Below are positions 2,746 through 10,175 of a DNA stretch of 12,464 nt, in pieces. The notes beneath the pieces are model-generated. The model ran no database searches, had not been told where the DNA came from, and worked only from the letters and a program-made list of their open reading frames with translations. The position numbers and the translations under genes were made by a program. Position 1 is the stretch's first letter. Each line of letters begins with the position of its first letter. Location of the stretch: assembly GCA_003695045.1 (NCBI GenBank), contig RFJB01000085.1, forward strand, positions 1-12,464, written 5' to 3'. Source of the DNA: Candidatus Woesearchaeota archaeon (lineage in GTDB: Archaea; Nanobdellota; Nanobdellia; Woesearchaeales; J091).

Positions 2746-3315
2746 ATGATAATAACAGTAACCGGGAAGCTCGGCTCCGGAAAGACAACTCTGTGCAGGC
2801 ACTTCCAAAGAAAAGGCGCCAGCGTAATTGACGCCGATGCTGCGGGAAAGGAACTCCTGCAGCGGCAGGATGTCAGAGACAAACTTGCAGAAGCATTCGG
2901 AAACAGGATTCTTAACGAAGACGGCAGCATAAACAAGGACAAGCTTGCAGAGCTGGCTTTCAAAAGCAGAACTTCTCTGGAAAAGCTGAACAGCATAATG
3001 CACCCTCTCCTGAGAAAAGAGTTGTCAAAAATGGCTGAAAAACAGGAAGGCATTGTTGTCATAGACGCAGCCCTCGGCAACGAACTTGGTTTGCATGAAA
3101 TATCCGACTTTGTCATTGTAGTTTCGGCTTCCGACGAAGCAGCAGCATCGCGGCTGCCCCCTGAAAAAAGACAAAACCTATTAAGAAGAAGAGCATTCCA
3201 GCAGGACAGCAGGGGGGATTTTCACATAGAGAACAACGGCTCTCTGGAAGAATTCCTGAAAGAGGGCGATAAGGTCTGGAACGAGGTCGTTCGCAATGCA
3301 AGGACAATCCGTTGA
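2746..3315 (+). CDS. coaE: Dephospho-CoA kinase, bacterial CoaE type
   Basis: A 189-residue P-loop kinase predicted to phosphorylate the 3'-hydroxyl of dephospho-CoA, the final step of CoA synthesis. The Walker A motif is GKLGSGKT (7-14), followed by the family marker VIDADAAGKELL (27-38), the segment NRILNEDGSINKDKLAELAF (about 53-72), the I-M-HP turn (84-87), and a C-terminal R-GDFHIENNGSLEEF block (156-170) that matches the CoaE ending. Two oddities stand out: the lid region between residues 130 and 155 looks shorter than in typical CoaE, and the usual D-x-PLL segment reads DAALG (107-111). Many archaea use an unrelated GTP-dependent dephospho-CoA kinase instead. The immediate coaD neighbour supports the call over a generic nucleotide kinase. 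The 3' end overlaps coaD by 20 bases. Confidence 0.85.
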   Translation: MIITVTGKLGSGKTTLCRHFQRKGASVIDADAAGKELLQRQDVRDKLAEAFGNRILNEDGSINKDKLAELAFKSRTSLEKLNSIMHPLLRKELSKMAEKQEGIVVIDAALGNELGLHEISDFVIVVSASDEAAASRLPPEKRQNLLRRRAFQQDSRGDFHIENNGSLEEFLKEGDKVWNEVVRNARTIR

Positions 3316-3823
3316 AAAGAATGCGAGAACCGCGATTTATCCCGGCAGTTTCGACCCCATAACAAACGGGCACCTTGACATACTCTCCAGGGCTCTGAAA
3401 ATATTTGACAAAATAATCATCGCGGTCCTCAGGAACGGAAGCAAAGAGCCGCTCTTTTCTGTGGAAGAGAGAATGAGCATGATAAAGCAGGTAACTTCCG
3501 GAATGAATGTTGTGATTGAATCTTTCGACGGACTTCTCGCGGATTATGTGAGGCAGAAAGAGACGAACATCATAATACGCTCGCTGAGGGCGACAAGCGA
3601 CTTTGACTATGAGTTTCAGATGGCAGTGATGAACAGCCAGATGAACAGGGAGATGGAAAGCATCTTTCTGATGACAGGAAAGGAATACTTCTTTCTGAGT
3701 TCTTCGGTCGTGAAGGAAATAGCTTCAAGGGGCGGCGATGTGAGCTGGCTCGTTCCTCCCGTGGTTGCTGAAAAACTGAAAGCAAAATTACGCTCTTCTG
3801 GCAGCAACAATGGTGAAGAATGA
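3296..3823 (+). CDS. coaD: Phosphopantetheine adenylyltransferase, bacterial CoaD type
   Basis: A 175-residue nucleotidyltransferase that joins ATP and 4'-phosphopantetheine to give dephospho-CoA, the substrate of the CoaE encoded just upstream. The sequence follows bacterial CoaD closely: AIYPGSFDPITNGHLDIL (13-30, with the nucleotidyltransferase G25-H26), IIIRSLRATSDFDYEFQMAVMN (92-113, usually RGLR, here RSLR), and FLSSSVVKEIASRGGDVSWLVPP (133-155), which carries the SSS-x2-K-x4-R ATP-binding element. Archaea more often use the separate archaeal PPAT family, so this copy is of bacterial type. The start ATG 3296 lies inside coaE and is preceded by GAGGT at 3282-3286. The last codons overlap the next gene in an ATGA junction. 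Confidence 0.95.
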   Translation: MQGQSVEKNARTAIYPGSFDPITNGHLDILSRALKIFDKIIIAVLRNGSKEPLFSVEERMSMIKQVTSGMNVVIESFDGLLADYVRQKETNIIIRSLRATSDFDYEFQMAVMNSQMNREMESIFLMTGKEYFFLSSSVVKEIASRGGDVSWLVPPVVAEKLKAKLRSSGSNNGEE

Positions 3824-4839
3824 TGGAACGCCTCAAAGAAGCCCTCTACTATGAGAAAAAACAAGGCAGCCAAAATGTTCAGTGCCGCATCTGCCCGAGA
3901 AACTGCATTATAGCCGAAGGAAAAACCGGTTTCTGCAGAGTCAGGCGGAACATAGGCGGAAAACTATATGCGGAAAACTATTCAAGGCCCTGCTCCATCG
4001 CAATAGACCCTGTAGAGAAAAAGCCCCTCTACCACTTCCTTCCGGGACAGGACATACTCTCCATAGCGACGGTCGGCTGCAATCTGGCATGCAAACACTG
4101 CCAGAATTATGAAATATCACAGGCAGAGGTAGGCGCCTACAACGAGCCAAAGGTAACTCCTGAAGAGATTGTTGACGCAGCACTTAGGAAAAACTGTAGC
4201 ATGATAGCATACACCTACACCGAACCAACAATCTTTTACGAGTATGTCCTTGACACTGCGAAACTTGCAAAGCAGAAAGGCATCAGAAACGTCATAGTTT
4301 CAAACGGATACATAAATCCGGAGCCGCTCAAAGAACTCCTGAAATACATTGATGCGGCAAACATCGACCTCAAAGCGTTTGACGGCGACTTCTACAAGAA
4401 GATAACGCTTGCGAAGCTCGAGCCGGTTCTCGAAACGCTCAGGACCATAGCAAAAAGCAGCGCGTGGCTGGAAATAACCAACCTGATAATACCAACTCTG
4501 AACGACAGCATAAGCAAAATAAGGGAGATGGCTGCATGGATTTCGGCAGAACTCGGAGCTGATGTCCCGCTTCATCTGACGAGATTTCACCCTTACTATA
4601 AGCTCTCACACCTTCCTCCAACCCCTGAAGAAACTCTCACGAAGGCATACATGGTTGCGAAAGAAAAACTCAACTATGTCTATGTCGGAAACATTCTCAC
4701 AGAGGAAGGACAGCACACATATTGTCCCGAGTGCGGCGAGCTTCTCATTGAACGAGTCGCTTTCAGGGTGGTGAAGAACAGAATAAAAAACTCCCGCTGC
4801 CCTTCGTGCAAAGCGAAAATAGCGGGGGTATGGAGTTGA
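3820..4839 (+). CDS. amrS: AmmeMemoRadiSam-type radical SAM enzyme (PflA-like)
   Basis: A 339-residue radical SAM protein. C87-x3-C91-x2-C94 in TVGCNLACKHCQN is the 4Fe-4S/SAM motif. Before it is a Cys cluster (C22, C25, C29, C39 in CRICPRNC...TGFCRVR), and at the C-terminus two CPxC pairs (CPECGE and CPSCKA) resemble a zinc ribbon. This Cys layout with ENYSRPCSIAIDPVEKKPLYHF is typical of the family grouped with AMMECR1 and Memo proteins and often annotated as pyruvate formate-lyase activating enzyme. Its substrate is not established to my knowledge, and no AMMECR1 or Memo gene is visible here. The ATG at 3820 overlaps the coaD stop by four bases; ATG 3823 is an alternative. A true PFL activase is unlikely since no glycyl-radical enzyme is nearby and the extra Cys regions would be unexplained. 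Confidence 0.88.
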   Translation: MMERLKEALYYEKKQGSQNVQCRICPRNCIIAEGKTGFCRVRRNIGGKLYAENYSRPCSIAIDPVEKKPLYHFLPGQDILSIATVGCNLACKHCQNYEISQAEVGAYNEPKVTPEEIVDAALRKNCSMIAYTYTEPTIFYEYVLDTAKLAKQKGIRNVIVSNGYINPEPLKELLKYIDAANIDLKAFDGDFYKKITLAKLEPVLETLRTIAKSSAWLEITNLIIPTLNDSISKIREMAAWISAELGADVPLHLTRFHPYYKLSHLPPTPEETLTKAYMVAKEKLNYVYVGNILTEEGQHTYCPECGELLIERVAFRVVKNRIKNSRCPSCKAKIAGVWS

Positions 4840-5405
4840 TGAAAAGAGAAAAAAACACCCTCAAGGAGATATTCAGCCAGTTAACGCCGTATCTCAAAGC
4901 AGTTCTGATCCTTTATGCCGTTTCACTTATGGCTGGCGCGGCGCTTCATGAAAGAATAAACCCCTTCATAAGCGAGTTTCTGGAAGGCATACTTGCTTCA
5001 GTGGAGCAGAAATCATATCTTGAAACGGTTGAGTTCATATTCATAAACAACTTTCGGGCAGCATTTCTTGCTGTGCTCTTAGGGCCCGTCTTTGCTCTTT
5101 ACCCGTTATTTGCCACCTCGCTGAACGGACTCATTCTGGGAGGCGCAGCTGCAAAGGCGTGGTCAACAAGCCCTGGTCTTCTACTGAAAATACTTCCGCA
5201 CGGAATCTTTGAGCTGCCCGCCATCCTCCTCTCATTTTCGCTTGGAGCAAAGACGGGCCTCGAACTGATTCTTCCAAAAAAAGGAGCAGGGAACAGGAAA
5301 GAATCATTCATAATAAACATGAAAAATTCGTTTTATGTTCTGTTCTCGGTCATACTGCCGCTTATTCTTATTGCAGCGCTTATAGAATCCGCTCTCATAA
5401 AGTAA
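4839..5405 (+). CDS. SpoIIM/DUF95-family integral membrane protein
   Basis: A 188-residue membrane protein of the stage II sporulation M (DUF95) family, which is widespread in archaea that do not sporulate and has no settled role there. The hallmark is LPHGIFELPAILLSFSLGAKTG (about 119-140). Hydrophobic segments lie near 19-36, 72-106 (probably two helices, with an NF-x-A...LGP...Y start), 122-138 and 164-186. The ATG at 4839 overlaps the radical SAM stop by one base (TGATG) and has GGGGG at 4824-4828 at suitable spacing. An in-frame ATG at 4830 would add three residues. It ends the coaE-coaD-amrS cluster. I see no clear functional link to CoA synthesis; co-transcription may simply be convenience. 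Confidence 0.85.
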   Translation: MKREKNTLKEIFSQLTPYLKAVLILYAVSLMAGAALHERINPFISEFLEGILASVEQKSYLETVEFIFINNFRAAFLAVLLGPVFALYPLFATSLNGLILGGAAAKAWSTSPGLLLKILPHGIFELPAILLSFSLGAKTGLELILPKKGAGNRKESFIINMKNSFYVLFSVILPLILIAALIESALIK

Positions 5406-5633: not shown

Positions 5634-7742
5634 ATGAAACGCTCCCCCCTGTTTCATCTTTTGCCTTTCTTCCTCTTTTTATTCCTCTTTGTCTTGGTCC
5701 AACCTGTTTCCCTGGCTTTCATATCGGCAAGAATAACCGAGGTTCAGTTCAATCCCATAGGCCAGGATTCCGTAAGCGAGTTTGTGGAATTCCTGCTTGA
5801 ATTCAACGAATCAGTCAATGCATCCCTGATTTCCTTCCGGGATGCCAACTCAGAGGACTCTTTGAGAATTCAGGGGAACCTCTCAGACGCAACAGGCAGG
5901 GCGCGGCTCGTAATATCTCCCTCCCCGGGTTACCCGTGCCCGGTTCTTTTGACATCAGGGCCGCCGGGAAACGGGCTGTCCAACACGGATGACTCTGTGG
6001 AAATACTCTACGGGAACATCACGCTTGCTGCCCTCCATTACGCTCTTTTTAGCGACCGCGTTGAGGTAATGAGTGGCAACTCAACATTCTCTCTTTCAGG
6101 ATACGAGGAAGGGCTTTCCATTCAACTGATGGAAAACACCTCTGAATGGAAACTTCTGAATCCAAGTCCGTGCAGCCCCGCCTTTTTACCGGTCAGCAAC
6201 TCTTCCACTGGGGCGCTTCACAATCAGACCAGTTCTTCATCCGCGCAAAACAGATCGCAAAACAGCTCTGCCCAATCCGGTTCCGCTTCAAATGATTCTA
6301 CTTCGACCGGTTCTACTTCAACCAATTCCAATTCAACAGGTTCTGATGCATCCGGGTCTGCCTCGCCAAGCTCCACAAATGCCTGCCTTTCAGGCACAGG
6401 AATGAGGATAAACATTCCCAAAAGAATCTACGAGGAAGGGGAAAAAGTGTTGTACACTATCGACTTCACAAATCACGGGCCACGCCCCAAGGTCAAATAC
6501 TGGATAGAATCATATTCCGGCAGGATTGCAAAGCAACCGTTCATAAGCGCCACAAGCACCCAAAAAAGCTTCACGCCCCGCCTTTCCTCGAAGAAACCGG
6601 ACTCCTTCACATTCCGGATTGTTGCAGAATCCCTCCCTGAAGATAACTGTCCGGAAGAAAGTGCGGAAGAATATTTCACAGTGGTTTCCGAGCCGACTGA
6701 AGCAGAAGAGTTTGAAAACAGCATTCTTCTTGAAGCAGAAGATACTGAATCATCATGCTCGGGCAAAACCTCGCTTGTCACAATCCCTGTAAAGGTAAGC
6801 GCTACAAAAGGGGACTCAAGAAAAAAGCTCATTGTATTAAGGGCTTTTCACGACGGAAATCCCGTCTCTAAGCCGGCAGAACTCAAGCTCCCTGCTTCTA
6901 ACTCTGTGGCGGAAGCCGAACTTGAGATTCCGGCAGTCCTGCCCTGCAACTCGTCCGTTATGAAAGTGACGGTCACTGCCGAAGGCCTCGGACTTGAAGA
7001 AAACAGGGAAGCCCTGGTCAATCTCAAACGCATCGAGCAAGAGAATCCTGCCTCAAAATCCGCGAGTGATGAAAGAGTATGCCAGCCGGCCGTTCAGAGA
7101 GAAAACACCCTCGAATCCGGTGTTATCAAAAAGATATACACTCTTGCAAGAACATTTGAGGATGGAAAGCAGATTCTCCTCAGGGTCAGAACCTCAAATA
7201 CAGCCGGCAACGGAACGCTTTACCTCTTCCGAAAGCAGAATGCCGAATTCAAATCCCTGATTGCATCCGGAGACACCGCTGTTATTCCGGTAATTCCTTC
7301 AGGACCGCAGGAAGAATACCTTGTGATTCTTCAATATCCCAACAATTCCTTCTTTCTAAAGCCGTTCAATCTGTCCCTTAATCCAAAGAAAATAAACCTG
7401 CCCGAAAACGCGAATTCCTCTTTGGAAATCCAGCACGGCGCAGGCAATAATGAGAATGAAAATTTCAGCACCCGAACATTAAGAACATTAAGCACGCACG
7501 CATCAGGCCAGGCATCGCTTGCTTCCATAACGGGCATGGCAACACTTGATGCTGCTTCGGGAAAAGACCAGCCCAACGCCAAAGAGACGCTGTTCCGTTC
7601 AGGAGGCAGGAAGGCAATACTGCTCGTTACGAATCCTTTAGGCATAGGCATACTGCTCTCGGCAACGGCTCTGGTTTTTGCCCTTGGCAAACGGAATTCT
7701 GAGGACGACTCCCCTGCAGAAATACGCAGCACGAGCAGATAG
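5634..7742 (+). CDS. Secreted, membrane-anchored surface protein with lamin-tail-like domain
   Basis: A 702-residue exported protein. Residues 1-29 form a basic start plus a long hydrophobic core (Sec-type signal). Residues about 31-170 resemble a lamin-tail domain: ITEVQFNPIGQDSVSEFVEF, then FRDANSEDSL, LTSGPPGNGLSNTDDSVEIL and EEGLSIQL. A Ser/Thr/Asn-rich linker at about 187-250 is probably disordered and glycosylated. Residues 257-352 and about 376-466 look like two beta-sandwich modules; the first begins MRINIPKRIYEEGEKVLYTIDFTNHG and contains KYWIESYSGRI. A third beta-rich stretch covers about 480-590. The C-terminus has a transmembrane helix near 661-685 followed by a short polar tail, so most of the chain should lie outside the cell. 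N-x-S/T sequons are numerous. No catalytic signature is seen. A role in envelope structure or adhesion is inference. The gene stands alone between two operons with its own possible promoter. Confidence 0.8.
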   Translation: MKRSPLFHLLPFFLFLFLFVLVQPVSLAFISARITEVQFNPIGQDSVSEFVEFLLEFNESVNASLISFRDANSEDSLRIQGNLSDATGRARLVISPSPGYPCPVLLTSGPPGNGLSNTDDSVEILYGNITLAALHYALFSDRVEVMSGNSTFSLSGYEEGLSIQLMENTSEWKLLNPSPCSPAFLPVSNSSTGALHNQTSSSSAQNRSQNSSAQSGSASNDSTSTGSTSTNSNSTGSDASGSASPSSTNACLSGTGMRINIPKRIYEEGEKVLYTIDFTNHGPRPKVKYWIESYSGRIAKQPFISATSTQKSFTPRLSSKKPDSFTFRIVAESLPEDNCPEESAEEYFTVVSEPTEAEEFENSILLEAEDTESSCSGKTSLVTIPVKVSATKGDSRKKLIVLRAFHDGNPVSKPAELKLPASNSVAEAELEIPAVLPCNSSVMKVTVTAEGLGLEENREALVNLKRIEQENPASKSASDERVCQPAVQRENTLESGVIKKIYTLARTFEDGKQILLRVRTSNTAGNGTLYLFRKQNAEFKSLIASGDTAVIPVIPSGPQEEYLVILQYPNNSFFLKPFNLSLNPKKINLPENANSSLEIQHGAGNNENENFSTRTLRTLSTHASGQASLASITGMATLDAASGKDQPNAKETLFRSGGRKAILLVTNPLGIGILLSATALVFALGKRNSEDDSPAEIRSTSR

Positions 7743-7784: not shown

Positions 7785-7792
7785 TATAAATA
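7785..7792 (+). promoter_or_regulatory. Strong archaeal TATA box for the ScpB operon
   Basis: TATAAATA is a near-consensus box A centred about 27 bases before ATG 7816. Transcription would start at or next to the ATG, giving a leaderless mRNA, and no Shine-Dalgarno sequence is present before this start. This is one of the clearest archaeal signatures in the window. Confidence 0.7.
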
Positions 7793-7815
7793 TGCCCGCG
7801 GTTAACAGCTGAATC

Positions 7816-8496
7816 ATGGCACTCTTCAGAAACAAGAAAAAGGAAAAGTCCAAGGAGGACAAGGAAAAAGAAGCGTCAGATTACAGAAAGAAAAAAATGG
7901 CTTCCATGGAAGACGATGAACGCCTTGAAAAAGGCCAGCTTAAACTCAGAATCATAATTGAGCTCATGGGCAAGCCGAAAGACCTCATGGAAAAGACATT
8001 CGACCTTCTCCTCAAAAAACTGAGGGACGACGAGAACCACCACGTCATAAAGGAAGACCGGGCGGACTTCAAACAACACGGAAAGCTCTGGACAACCTTT
8101 GCAGAAGTTGAACTCTGGGTAAAAAACTTTTCGGCACTCACCGCATTGCTCTTCGACTACCTTCCCAGCAGCGTTGAGGTTCTGGAACCTCAAAACTTCA
8201 TTCTCAGAAGCCAGGACTTCACCGACTATCTCAACGACATGCAGGCGCGCCTTCATCAGGCAGACATGACCGTGAAGAATCTCAGGGCCGAAGTTCAGGT
8301 TCTCAAAAAGCAGGCAGCAGGAATGCTCAACAACCTGGTGGTCCTTTCCCTGAGAGAGGGCCCGAAAACGCTTGAGGAAGTGTGCGAGGACATAGGCACC
8401 TCGCCGGAGGACCTTGAGCCGTACATGAAAAAGTTCGTCGAGTTCGGAAAGATAAAAATGGACGGCAAAAAATACGATTTGGTGAGGAAAAAATGA
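7816..8496 (+). CDS. Unnamed winged-helix/coiled-coil protein, first gene of the ScpB operon
   Basis: 226 residues, cytoplasmic, no signal peptide; function unknown. In order: a Lys/Glu-rich N-terminus (about 1-40); a region at 41-125 whose pattern (LKLRIIIELMG, helix, FAEVELWVKNF, helix, SSVEVLEP) reads like a small alpha/beta fold of ACT or ferredoxin type; a helical, probably coiled-coil stretch at about 136-166 (DYLNDMQARLHQADMTVKNL); and a C-terminal segment at 168-226 (VVLSLREGPKTLEEVCEDIG, then helix, then KIKMDGKKYDLVRKK) that fits a winged helix. The blocks FDYLPSSVEVLEP and LNDMQARLHQADM resemble proteins I recall from DPANN genomes, all without a name. It overlaps the next gene by four bases (ATGA) and heads the operon holding scpB, so a DNA-binding or chromosome-related role is a reasonable inference but unproven. 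Confidence 0.8.
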   Translation: MALFRNKKKEKSKEDKEKEASDYRKKKMASMEDDERLEKGQLKLRIIIELMGKPKDLMEKTFDLLLKKLRDDENHHVIKEDRADFKQHGKLWTTFAEVELWVKNFSALTALLFDYLPSSVEVLEPQNFILRSQDFTDYLNDMQARLHQADMTVKNLRAEVQVLKKQAAGMLNNLVVLSLREGPKTLEEVCEDIGTSPEDLEPYMKKFVEFGKIKMDGKKYDLVRKK

Positions 8497-8762
8497 GGAC
8501 AATAGTGGGCGTATCAATTATTGTCGCTGTCGCTGCAGTTCTCGCAGGACTGCTGTGGTGGTTTGCCGTCACGAGAGAGCCGGCAGCCAATACCGTCCAG
8601 GAGGACGGGCTCTACAAAACAATCAATCTTCAGGACTCCTGCTCGTCTGAATGGGATTCCTGCTGCGAGTCGAGCTGCAACGACTTCTGCGATGAAAACG
8701 GGCAGGATTACTTCAACCACCACACCAATAATTACCTTTGCAGTTGCTGGTGTTCAGCGTAA
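8493..8762 (+). CDS. Small membrane-anchored Cys-rich protein, unknown function
   Basis: An 89-residue protein I do not recognise. Residues 3-26 form one hydrophobic helix (VGVSIIVAVAAVLAGLLWWF) with a short positive start, so the anchor or uncleaved signal should place the rest outside. The outer part holds eight cysteines at 50, 57, 58, 62, 66, 83, 85 and 87, plus H76-H77, in an acidic, Asn/Asp-rich setting. The C-terminus is CSCWCSA. Possibilities are a disulfide-stabilised knot or a metal-binding module. It begins inside the preceding gene (ATGA overlap at 8493-8496), which supports it being a real translated gene. A 39-base gap separates it from scpB. The length fits no family known to me. 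Confidence 0.65.
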   Translation: MRTIVGVSIIVAVAAVLAGLLWWFAVTREPAANTVQEDGLYKTINLQDSCSSEWDSCCESSCNDFCDENGQDYFNHHTNNYLCSCWCSA

Positions 8763-8801
8763 CTATCCGGCTGGCATTCCGACTAAACAGGGCTGGTATT
8801 A

Positions 8802-10001
8802 ATGGAAGACATACTCAACAAGGTCGAATCTGTGCTTTTTTCCGTCGGCAAAAAGGTCGATGTTGAGTTCATCAGGCAACTCTGGAAGGTGCGCGATTCC
8901 AAAATAATAGAGGAAGCCCTGAAAGAGCTGAAAAAGGTTTATGACGAACGCGCCTCTTCCCTCCAGGTGGTTCAGGAAGGCGATTTCTGGAAGCTTACAG
9001 TCAGGGACAAATATGCCGAGCTTGCAAGGCGCATAATTCCTGAAACAGAAATGTCCAAAGCGGTAATGGAAACGCTCGCAGTAATCGCATGGAAGCAGCC
9101 CGTTCTCCAGTCGGAAGTAATCAGGGTAAGGACCAACAAGGCATACGAACACATAAAGGAACTCGAAGAAATGGGCTTCATAACAACGGAAAAGTTCGGA
9201 AGAACGAAAAAACTCAAGATAACGCAAAAATTCCTTGATTACTTCGACATCGGCGGCATAGACGATATCAAAGAGTTCTTCAAAAAGATGCGGGAGAAGC
9301 AGAAAGAAGAGCAGAAAGAACTTTCAGGAAAGGACGCGGAGATAGCACGGCTCGTGCAGGGAATAGCCCAGGCAGCAGAAGAGCAATCAATTGTTTCCAA
9401 CGCAATATCCGAATCCCAACAGGAGTTAGAGGGGCGGGACATTTCAGAGGCCTCCCAGAGCACAGAGGAAAACAGCAGGATAGGCCCTCTGGAGGTCTAC
9501 GATGCAGATGCTCCAAATCAGGATGGAGAGGATGATTCCGAAGCAGGCGAAGAGGCGCCCCAGAGAATCTCATATCCTTCTGATGAAGAAGTAAAACAAA
9601 GGCATGAAATACACGAGATGCTGTCCGAAACCCTGGAAAGCAAAAAAACCGAAGAAAGCAATGAAGAAAGCGAAATCAGAGACAGTTTGGACTCCGAACC
9701 GGCGCTTCGCCATCCTTCTTATGAGCCAGAGCCGACAGAGAAACCATCCGAAAGGCAGCATGAAATGCCGTCAGAAAGCGAGGCAGAAAGGGAACCGGCA
9801 GGGTCTGAAGCAGCGAGCGAACCCGAGTCCAAAACAGGGGAGCAGCACGAGTTCCGAAAAACAGGAATCTGGGACGATGATGAAGATTCTGCAGAGAACG
9901 AAAAACAACAGGAAGACGCCATTCAGAAAGAAAAGAGCAACCTTGACAAGCTCTTTGAAGAAGACGCTTCAGACCAGGAAGACGAAGATGAGGAGCCATG
10001 A
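8802..10001 (+). CDS. scpB: Segregation and condensation protein B with long acidic tail
   Basis: 399 residues, about twice the usual ScpB length. Residues 1-160 are the ScpB core of two winged helices: ILNKVESVLFSVGKKVDVE at the start, then METLAVIAWKQPVLQSEVIRVR (89-110), GFITTEKFGRTKKLKITQKFLDYF (125-148). ScpB binds the kleisin ScpA and with SMC forms the complex that compacts and segregates chromosomes. ScpA and SMC are not in the window. From about 161 onward the chain is a helical Lys/Glu stretch and then about 200 residues rich in Glu, Ser, Asp and Gln with few hydrophobics, presumably disordered. Islands within it are a PQRISYPSDEEV segment near 255-266, IWDDDEDS (about 357-364) and SNLDKLFEED near the end. 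No good Shine-Dalgarno is seen before ATG 8802. The 3' end overlaps the zinc-ribbon gene by four bases. Confidence 0.9.
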   Translation: MEDILNKVESVLFSVGKKVDVEFIRQLWKVRDSKIIEEALKELKKVYDERASSLQVVQEGDFWKLTVRDKYAELARRIIPETEMSKAVMETLAVIAWKQPVLQSEVIRVRTNKAYEHIKELEEMGFITTEKFGRTKKLKITQKFLDYFDIGGIDDIKEFFKKMREKQKEEQKELSGKDAEIARLVQGIAQAAEEQSIVSNAISESQQELEGRDISEASQSTEENSRIGPLEVYDADAPNQDGEDDSEAGEEAPQRISYPSDEEVKQRHEIHEMLSETLESKKTEESNEESEIRDSLDSEPALRHPSYEPEPTEKPSERQHEMPSESEAEREPAGSEAASEPESKTGEQHEFRKTGIWDDDEDSAENEKQQEDAIQKEKSNLDKLFEEDASDQEDEDEEP

Positions 10002-10147
10002 GCATACTTCTCCTCGTTCAGTGCCCCAAATGCGGCAATAAAATGAAGGCATCCCCCAGAGGAAACAACCTCTCGGGAAAGAAAAAGAGGTGCGTTTACT
10101 GCGGAGCCACCTTCTCATTGAGAGACCGCATTATAAGACAACTCTGA
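9998..10147 (+). CDS. Tiny zinc-ribbon protein (49 residues)
   Basis: A short gene starting at ATG 9998 in an ATGA overlap with the scpB stop, with GAGGAG at 9990-9995 as ribosome-binding site, and ending at TGA 10145-10147. The protein begins MSILLLVQCPKCGNKM and holds two knuckles, C9-P-K-C12 and C32-V-Y-C35, separated by a basic Gly/Lys-rich loop, ending SLRDRIIRQL. This is a compact rubredoxin-like zinc ribbon. Such proteins in archaea often bind nucleic acid or act as small partners in larger complexes; the role here is unknown. The matched Cys pairs, start overlap and ribosome-binding site make a chance frame unlikely. It closes the operon ahead of the gyrA promoter. Confidence 0.85.
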   Translation: MSILLLVQCPKCGNKMKASPRGNNLSGKKKRCVYCGATFSLRDRIIRQL

Positions 10148-10165: not shown

Positions 10166-10175
10166 CTTATATAAA
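10166..10175 (+). promoter_or_regulatory. TATA box of gyrA
   Basis: CTTATATAAA matches the archaeal box A consensus well. Expected transcription start is about 25-28 bases downstream, near 10195-10200, giving a leader of roughly 43-48 bases before ATG 10243. This gene therefore appears to be leadered, unlike the leaderless-looking starts at 2746, 5634 and 7816. The leader contains AGTTGATAACT (10204-10214, a small inverted repeat) followed by a run of six T at 10216-10221. Confidence 0.6.

Follow-up and report, generated by a model that had tools for sequence, protein, structure and literature searches.

The stretch analysed here, hereafter the window, is the entire contig C126, 12,464 bases long, from a draft archaeal genome of 1.06 Mb and 84% completeness. 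It carries scpB within a run of four genes, in which it is accompanied by the genes for a winged-helix (WH) protein, an eight-cysteine miniprotein and a zinc ribbon (Table 1). These four genes, and the TATA box before them, had been read from the sequence in an initial annotation; all were recovered in place, and the four-gene unit is real. The miniprotein gene starts in an ATGA overlap with the WH gene, the zinc ribbon gene starts in a second such overlap with scpB, and scpB itself starts 39 bases past the end of the miniprotein gene. ScpB exceeds both curated cut-offs (PF04079, 121.1 bits against 27.4, E=4e-35; TIGR00281, 93.4 bits against 89.2), and the nearest solved structure by sequence is 6juv, which we take to be the P. 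yayanosii protein of Jeon et al. 2020. The scpA gene, rightly noted as absent from the window, was found elsewhere in this genome, on contig C53, and contig C99 carries an SMC hinge. The window scpB lies next to neither scpA nor smc, the neighbourhood by which a Smc-ScpAB gene would be recognised. Across the order to which the genome belongs, scpB is almost always accompanied by an unstudied WH gene and not by its textbook partners.

Table 1. Positions of the genes and sequence elements around scpB in the window
Feature	Coordinates	Strand	Basis
C5, 702 aa, lamin-tail-domain family, probably secreted, C-terminally membrane-anchored	5634..7742	+	BLAST cluster and neighbourhood
TATA box TATAAAT of the WH-ScpB unit, probably a leaderless promoter	7785..7791	+	25-31 bases 5' of the ATG at 7816
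WH protein gene, PF27325 family, 226 aa	7816..8496	+	AlphaFold2 model, Pfam label, order-wide matches
Eight-Cys miniprotein, 89 aa, N-terminal hydrophobic stretch, membrane-anchored	8493..8762	+	Open reading frame; one relative
ScpB, 399 aa, acidic tail of ~230 residues	8802..10001	+	PF04079, TIGR00281
Docking-type motif IGPLEVY, ScpB residues 227-233, acidic tail	9480..9500	+	Motif pattern match
Zinc ribbon CPxC...KRCVYCG, 49 aa	9998..10147	+	Invariant Cys in aligned members
TATA-like TTATATAAA of gyrA	10167-10175	+	Window sequence
gyrA, cut at contig end	10243..12464	+	NF004043, 1156 bits

Linkage of the WH gene and scpB across the order

The order was sampled with 60 genomes (the present one and 59 relatives, one per family), and the 60 regions fetched yielded, together with the window, 55 ScpB loci, each from a different family. 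WH and ScpB share the locus in 52 of these 55: the WH gene is the immediate upstream same-strand neighbour of scpB in 49, stands one gene away in two loci, among them the window, and two genes away in another, and the pair is unlinked in genomes G020, G037 and G054. By distance, WH lies no more than 2 kb upstream of scpB on the same strand in 51/54 order loci. A named-genome set comprised the best 80 of 120 loci, with the titles Woesearchaeota, Pacearchaeota, Nanoarchaeota, Nanoarchaeia, archaeon and, once, Methanosarcinales; 23 of the 80 overlap other regions, which leaves 57 independent loci. The locus titled Methanosarcinales archaeon (L216) is a Woesearchaeota-type WH-ScpB locus, probably from a mislabelled or contaminated bin. 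WH proteins were classed as the long form when they covered more than 85% of the length of a profile of 54 WH proteins. The long form is followed directly (within 150 bases) by ScpB in 48/54 order loci and in 37/39 of the independent named ones; the short form is followed in this way in 0/17 independent named loci with enough flank. Pooled, the counts are 85/93 for the long form versus 1/38 for the short form (Fisher p 1e-23, a value that overstates independence because the loci are related by descent).

The remaining genes accompany this pair to differing degrees. The zinc ribbon occurs in 39/60 order genomes and, with weaker matches, in 4/40 genomes of sister orders; it is the first or second gene after ScpB in 29/55 loci, some of them cut by contig ends, and its residues C9, C12, C32 and C35 are invariant in 27 aligned members. 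Beyond what the initial annotation had covered, gyrA is the usual next gene: in 30/39 order and 25/29 named loci (the two sets partly overlap), it lies downstream of the long WH form at a distance of no more than 4.5 kb. According to PMC9348778, most Woesearchaeota and Pacearchaeota have gyrase. The miniprotein has no relatives in the 60 fetched order regions and a single one elsewhere (80% identity, all eight Cys kept), on a 692-base metagenome contig. It was accordingly rejected as a conserved partner, and the proposal that it links the SMC complex to the envelope is not supported; it is a real but private gene outside the core. The expectation that the four genes would be conserved together holds, in the order-wide survey, for WH, ScpB and, less constantly, the zinc ribbon; the genes are not scattered in related genomes, since these three form a conserved lineage-specific unit.

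ScpB, ScpA and the SMC hinge are present in 55, 52 and 56 of the 60 order genomes, respectively. In 31 order ScpA loci (from this genome and 30 others), neither SMC nor ScpB lies within 1.5 kb of scpA, as far as the contigs reach. ScpA and ScpB occur together in 50/60 genomes, ScpB without detected ScpA in five (each with WH), ScpA without ScpB in two and neither in three; WH and ScpB are both found in 55/60, neither in three and WH alone in two, where the contig ends inside the WH gene. By co-occurrence, ScpB is tied more tightly to WH than to ScpA. Genome G019, which is 99% complete, has WH and ScpB on contig C25 and no detected ScpA or SMC hinge, which suggests that ScpB may act without SMC in this organism.

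The arrangement shares with the bacterial Smc-ScpAB system (scpA-scpB operon) a ScpB core that is ordinary by profile and the common presence of ScpA and the SMC hinge, but differs in that scpB of the order stands with WH, the zinc ribbon and gyrA, and its product often has a long, motif-bearing acidic tail. Jeon et al. 2020 (PMC7055376) report that archaeal scpB is patchy in 640 surveyed genomes and often remote from scpA, and that pull-downs gave no ScpA-ScpB binding for the archaeal homologues tested; the authors raised the possibility of unrelated paralogues. The present scpB is similar to these orphan genes in standing apart from scpA, but here a specific partner gene adjoins scpB, and 4/20 sister-order loci keep scpA and smc. 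The words DPANN and Nanoarchaeota are absent from the main text of that paper. In the open-licence PubMed Central literature searched, no description of the WH-ScpB link was found, and neither PF27325 nor ScpB with Woesearchaeota is mentioned.

Differences between the order and its sister orders

In the AlphaFold2 model of the WH protein (mean pLDDT, the per-residue confidence score, 94.6), an N-terminal helix (residues 13-38) is followed by a ferredoxin-like domain (42-124), a 48-residue helix (132-179) and the winged helix (186-222). The model of the short form from the sister orders (pLDDT 89.5) has the same architecture minus the winged helix, and PF27325 therefore exists in two architectures. 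This precomputed Pfam label is borne by the window protein, by 7/7 matches of one homologue search and by all 120 matches listed (of 237) in a larger one; a direct scan of the Pfam library did not return it for the WH protein. No family matched the window protein above its curated threshold, PADLOC and PHROGs gave no match, and structure and fold searches with both domains returned common folds only, with no PDB match at E ≤0.001; a new fold is not implied.

The WH profile matches 262 of the 279 genomes of a phylum sample and is thus near-universal. A match is present in 57/60 order genomes (this one included), some of them partial. In 39/40 sister-order genomes, the match covers the N-terminal part and ends at or before profile position 159, mostly at about 145; the winged helix occupies approximately positions 147-200, and sister genome G179 has a weak winged-helix match only. 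The claim of a lineage-specific unit apart from scpA is upheld for WH, ScpB and, less constantly, the zinc ribbon and qualified in one respect, as the WH core is more widespread than its link to ScpB. Judging from sequence comparison, the ferredoxin-like/long-helix protein is old, and the winged helix is carried almost only beside scpB. The tree of the N-terminal domain requires four changes between long and short forms; holding all long forms as one clade gave a higher likelihood and was not rejected (approximately unbiased test, p 0.83, 133 rows). This tree has few alignment columns and leaves out L116, L117 and L142, which are long-branched or cut (one is a long form). Gain of the winged helix is favoured over loss, although the tree is unrooted and cannot tell the two apart. 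The ScpB tree sets the order proteins apart by a branch with support 74.

For the sister orders, 40 genomes were scanned, of which 20 were fetched around the short WH form and 20 around ScpB. ScpB is present in 39/40 and by coordinates is adjacent to the short form in none of the 40, the nearest on the same contig being 6 kb away; in G078 and G180 at least, the neighbour of the short form is hidden by a contig edge. Neither ScpB, the zinc ribbon nor gyrA follows the short form in the 20 loci fetched around it. Among the 20 ScpB loci, scpA is directly upstream in three and behind one small open reading frame (ORF) in one, with smc in the same locus each time.

ScpB itself also differs. Complete proteins have a median length of 305 residues in the order (n=52) versus 179.5 in the sister orders (n=20; p 1e-8), with median tails of 140 versus 14.5 residues; more than 60 residues follow position 165 in 43/52 versus 3/20 proteins, and the order tails are approximately one-third acidic. 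A motif, M1, with the pattern [LIVM]GxL[EDQ][VI][VYFI], often EKLGxLEVxDEP and also summarised as LGxLEV(V/F/Y)(D/E)EP, is present in 37/87 tails of the unit and 37/64 tails of at least 100 residues, versus 0.02 on average for shuffled tails. The tails tested for M1 are those from which k-mer counting had derived it, and this enrichment is therefore post hoc. More independent support comes from the low frequency of M1 in the other ORFs of these loci (0.2 per 10,000 residues versus 15.4 in tails) and from its absence in ten ScpB tails of sister orders and in 31 ScpA proteins; it was also found in none of 137 WH, 75 GyrA, 75 zinc ribbon and 87 C5 proteins. Under a looser pattern, one ScpB tail holds three copies, and rarer motifs resembling D.[KR]V..[IM]LHP and DLLEA occur in 12/87 and 13/87 tails, respectively.

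A further difference concerns the promoter. Leaderless archaeal genes have their TATA box at about -31 to -28. TATA-like hexamers, mostly starting at -31 to -28, precede 74/94 de-duplicated long WH genes, versus 17/43 short WH starts, 149/424 other large ORFs of the long-form loci, and 8.5% and 14.1% of random positions in long- and short-form loci, respectively. They precede the ScpB start in 13/20 sister-order cases versus 16/93 cases in the order and named sets after de-duplication; in the latter sets, also de-duplicated, the counts are 10/66 for the zinc ribbon, 23/65 for gyrA and 39/78 for C5. All these counts carry some noise, since each gene was assumed to start where its longest ORF does. 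Because such boxes are frequent before WH and rare before ScpB and the zinc ribbon, the WH gene is most likely where transcription of the unit begins.

The C5 gene, which lies upstream of WH in the window, proved to be a neighbour of WH in the sister orders too, a point that the initial annotation did not contain. It is directly upstream of the short form in 18/20 sister and 16/18 independent named loci, and of the long form in 23/51 and 14/37 loci. The window copy clusters with 23 relatives by BLAST; PF00932, the lamin-tail domain, was found in 7/7 other members scanned and not in the window copy itself. In 31/42 C5 proteins, six or fewer residues follow the best C-terminal membrane stretch (22 in the window copy). 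As the WH core of the sister orders, without a winged helix, sits behind this lamin-tail gene, C5 is a more plausible envelope connection than the miniprotein.

Several observations on C5 stand on their own. Many C5 proteins end in (V/I)YES(S/N)xxKA, a membrane helix and a KK/RR end (e.g., L091:5091-6968 and L129:4943-6082); this YES motif is missing from the window copy. Strong matches (E under 1e-6) occur once per genome in 17/40 genomes and always at C5 by position, so a general sorting signal was rejected, and the motif resembles an anchoring or sorting signal with a single target. In the sister-order loci L123-L135, opposite-strand genes (c4 and c11) for large, probably secreted proteins recur beside the C5/short-WH pair. 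An AmmeMemoRadiSam-type radical SAM gene (3820-5405 in the window) is near C5 in 12 order loci and adjoins it in some sister loci, and a SpoIIM-family gene is near C5 in four order loci. At 2746-3823, coaE (PF01121) stands beside a gene that, by eye from its sequence, resembles a bacterial-type phosphopantetheine adenylyltransferase.

Candidate roles of the WH protein

The strongest observation is that four traits, namely the winged helix, the gene location, the promoter and the ScpB tail, divide the lineages in the same way, and this is most simply explained by a functional WH-ScpB partnership. The reading that WH, ScpB and the zinc ribbon are one transcription unit fixed in the Woesearchaeota-type order, with WH as a dedicated ScpB partner, has in our estimate about an even chance of being correct. 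In this reading, WH may contact ScpB directly. The ferredoxin-like domain and the long helix would dimerise, and the winged helix would dock on ScpB, itself a two-winged-helix protein, or on its tail. The recognition-like helix is acidic on average (mean net charge -1.4 over long-form rows, not de-duplicated), which leans towards a winged helix that probably docks protein rather than DNA. ScpB might then help to organise the chromosome alongside gyrase within an assembly that contains WH, either alone or together with SMC-ScpA, with the zinc ribbon as a putative accessory and the miniprotein outside the core.

A number of observations weigh against a dedicated partnership. Five long forms have no ScpB within 2 kb (G020, G037, G054 and the named loci L209 and L235), and the WH protein of G018 (L084/L294; 153 aa) lacks a winged helix yet adjoins ScpB and gyrA, the sole order locus seen with this combination. 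None of 157 WH ORFs (57 order, 20 sister and 80 named, in partly overlapping sets) is fused to ScpB, and natural fusion as proof of contact was set aside after none of them matched ScpB, the zinc ribbon, GyrA or C5. The strict tail motif is missing from 27/64 long tails. Over the same long-form rows, the winged helix as a whole averages a charge of +2.5, so it may contact DNA. Co-occurrence is given little weight because adjacent genes share assembly gaps. In the phylum sample, 13/13 order genomes with WH that were compared have ScpB; in the nine without WH, ScpB is absent from five, at a contig edge in three and alone in one (G249). There is no WH-ScpB tie in the sister orders, since ScpB is present in 8/8 genomes that lack a WH match and missing from one of eight with WH (G224). 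Co-variation of WH with ScpB exceeds that with gyrA only slightly (partial r 0.19-0.37), and the mirror-tree test was discarded as weak and confounded by descent. A joint clean deletion of WH and ScpB was also sought and rejected: no clean excision can be demonstrated in G034 because its zinc ribbon sits in an unrelated place, and in G249 ScpB stands alone beside other genes.

On the other hand, WH may be a DNA-binding regulator of its own operon, with a ferredoxin-like sensor and a winged helix in reversed Lrp/AsnC order and scpB co-transcribed as a regulatory convenience. Lrp/AsnC regulators have an N-terminal helix-turn-helix followed by a RAM domain; the likeness to them is one of fold alone, and in the WH model the domain order is reversed, which places the protein outside that family, and the recognition-like helix is acidic. 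TrmB is a weak likeness: 17/54 WH members match PF01978 at E 0.05 or better (best 6e-5) and homologue P0119 bears a precomputed TrmB label, and the window protein itself has no TrmB match at E 1. The protein is also no kite protein by its model, which holds one winged helix and not two in tandem. With the acidic recognition-like helix, a short form that does without the winged helix and no curated family reached by the window protein, the regulator is unlikely.

An alternative in which the gene order is kept for expression only, as a housekeeping string with gyrA in which WH and ScpB are not functionally joined, draws on the unrelated housekeeping genes strung along the window and on gyrA, which stays adjacent despite its own TATA-like box there. 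Against it stands a single lineage divide along which the winged helix, the position of the promoter, the place of scpB and the acidic tail all differ, and we consider this alternative improbable.

The dedicated partnership also admits a bolder form, in which ScpB has at least partly left the SMC-kleisin ring and its acidic tail, through LGxLEV(V/F/Y)(D/E)EP, would dock the ferredoxin-like or winged-helix domain of WH, linking the chromosome, gyrase and, via the lamin-tail partner, the envelope; this we regard as doubtful. Finally, an envelope-chromosome adaptor, with the WH core bound to C5 and the winged helix to ScpB, would fit the C5-WH-ScpB order and the position of C5 directly before the core, but over half of the long-form loci have no C5 directly upstream and most C5 proteins, given the few residues past their membrane stretch, leave little for a cytoplasmic protein to grip, so that it is very unlikely.

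The order supplies a specific, conserved candidate partner for archaeal ScpB. The sister orders provide a natural control group, and the tail motif is a defined target to mutate. If true, the WH partnership bears on the published puzzle of why ScpB homologues from archaea fail to bind ScpA; and if ScpB does act outside the ring, this would answer who partners an archaeal orphan kite.

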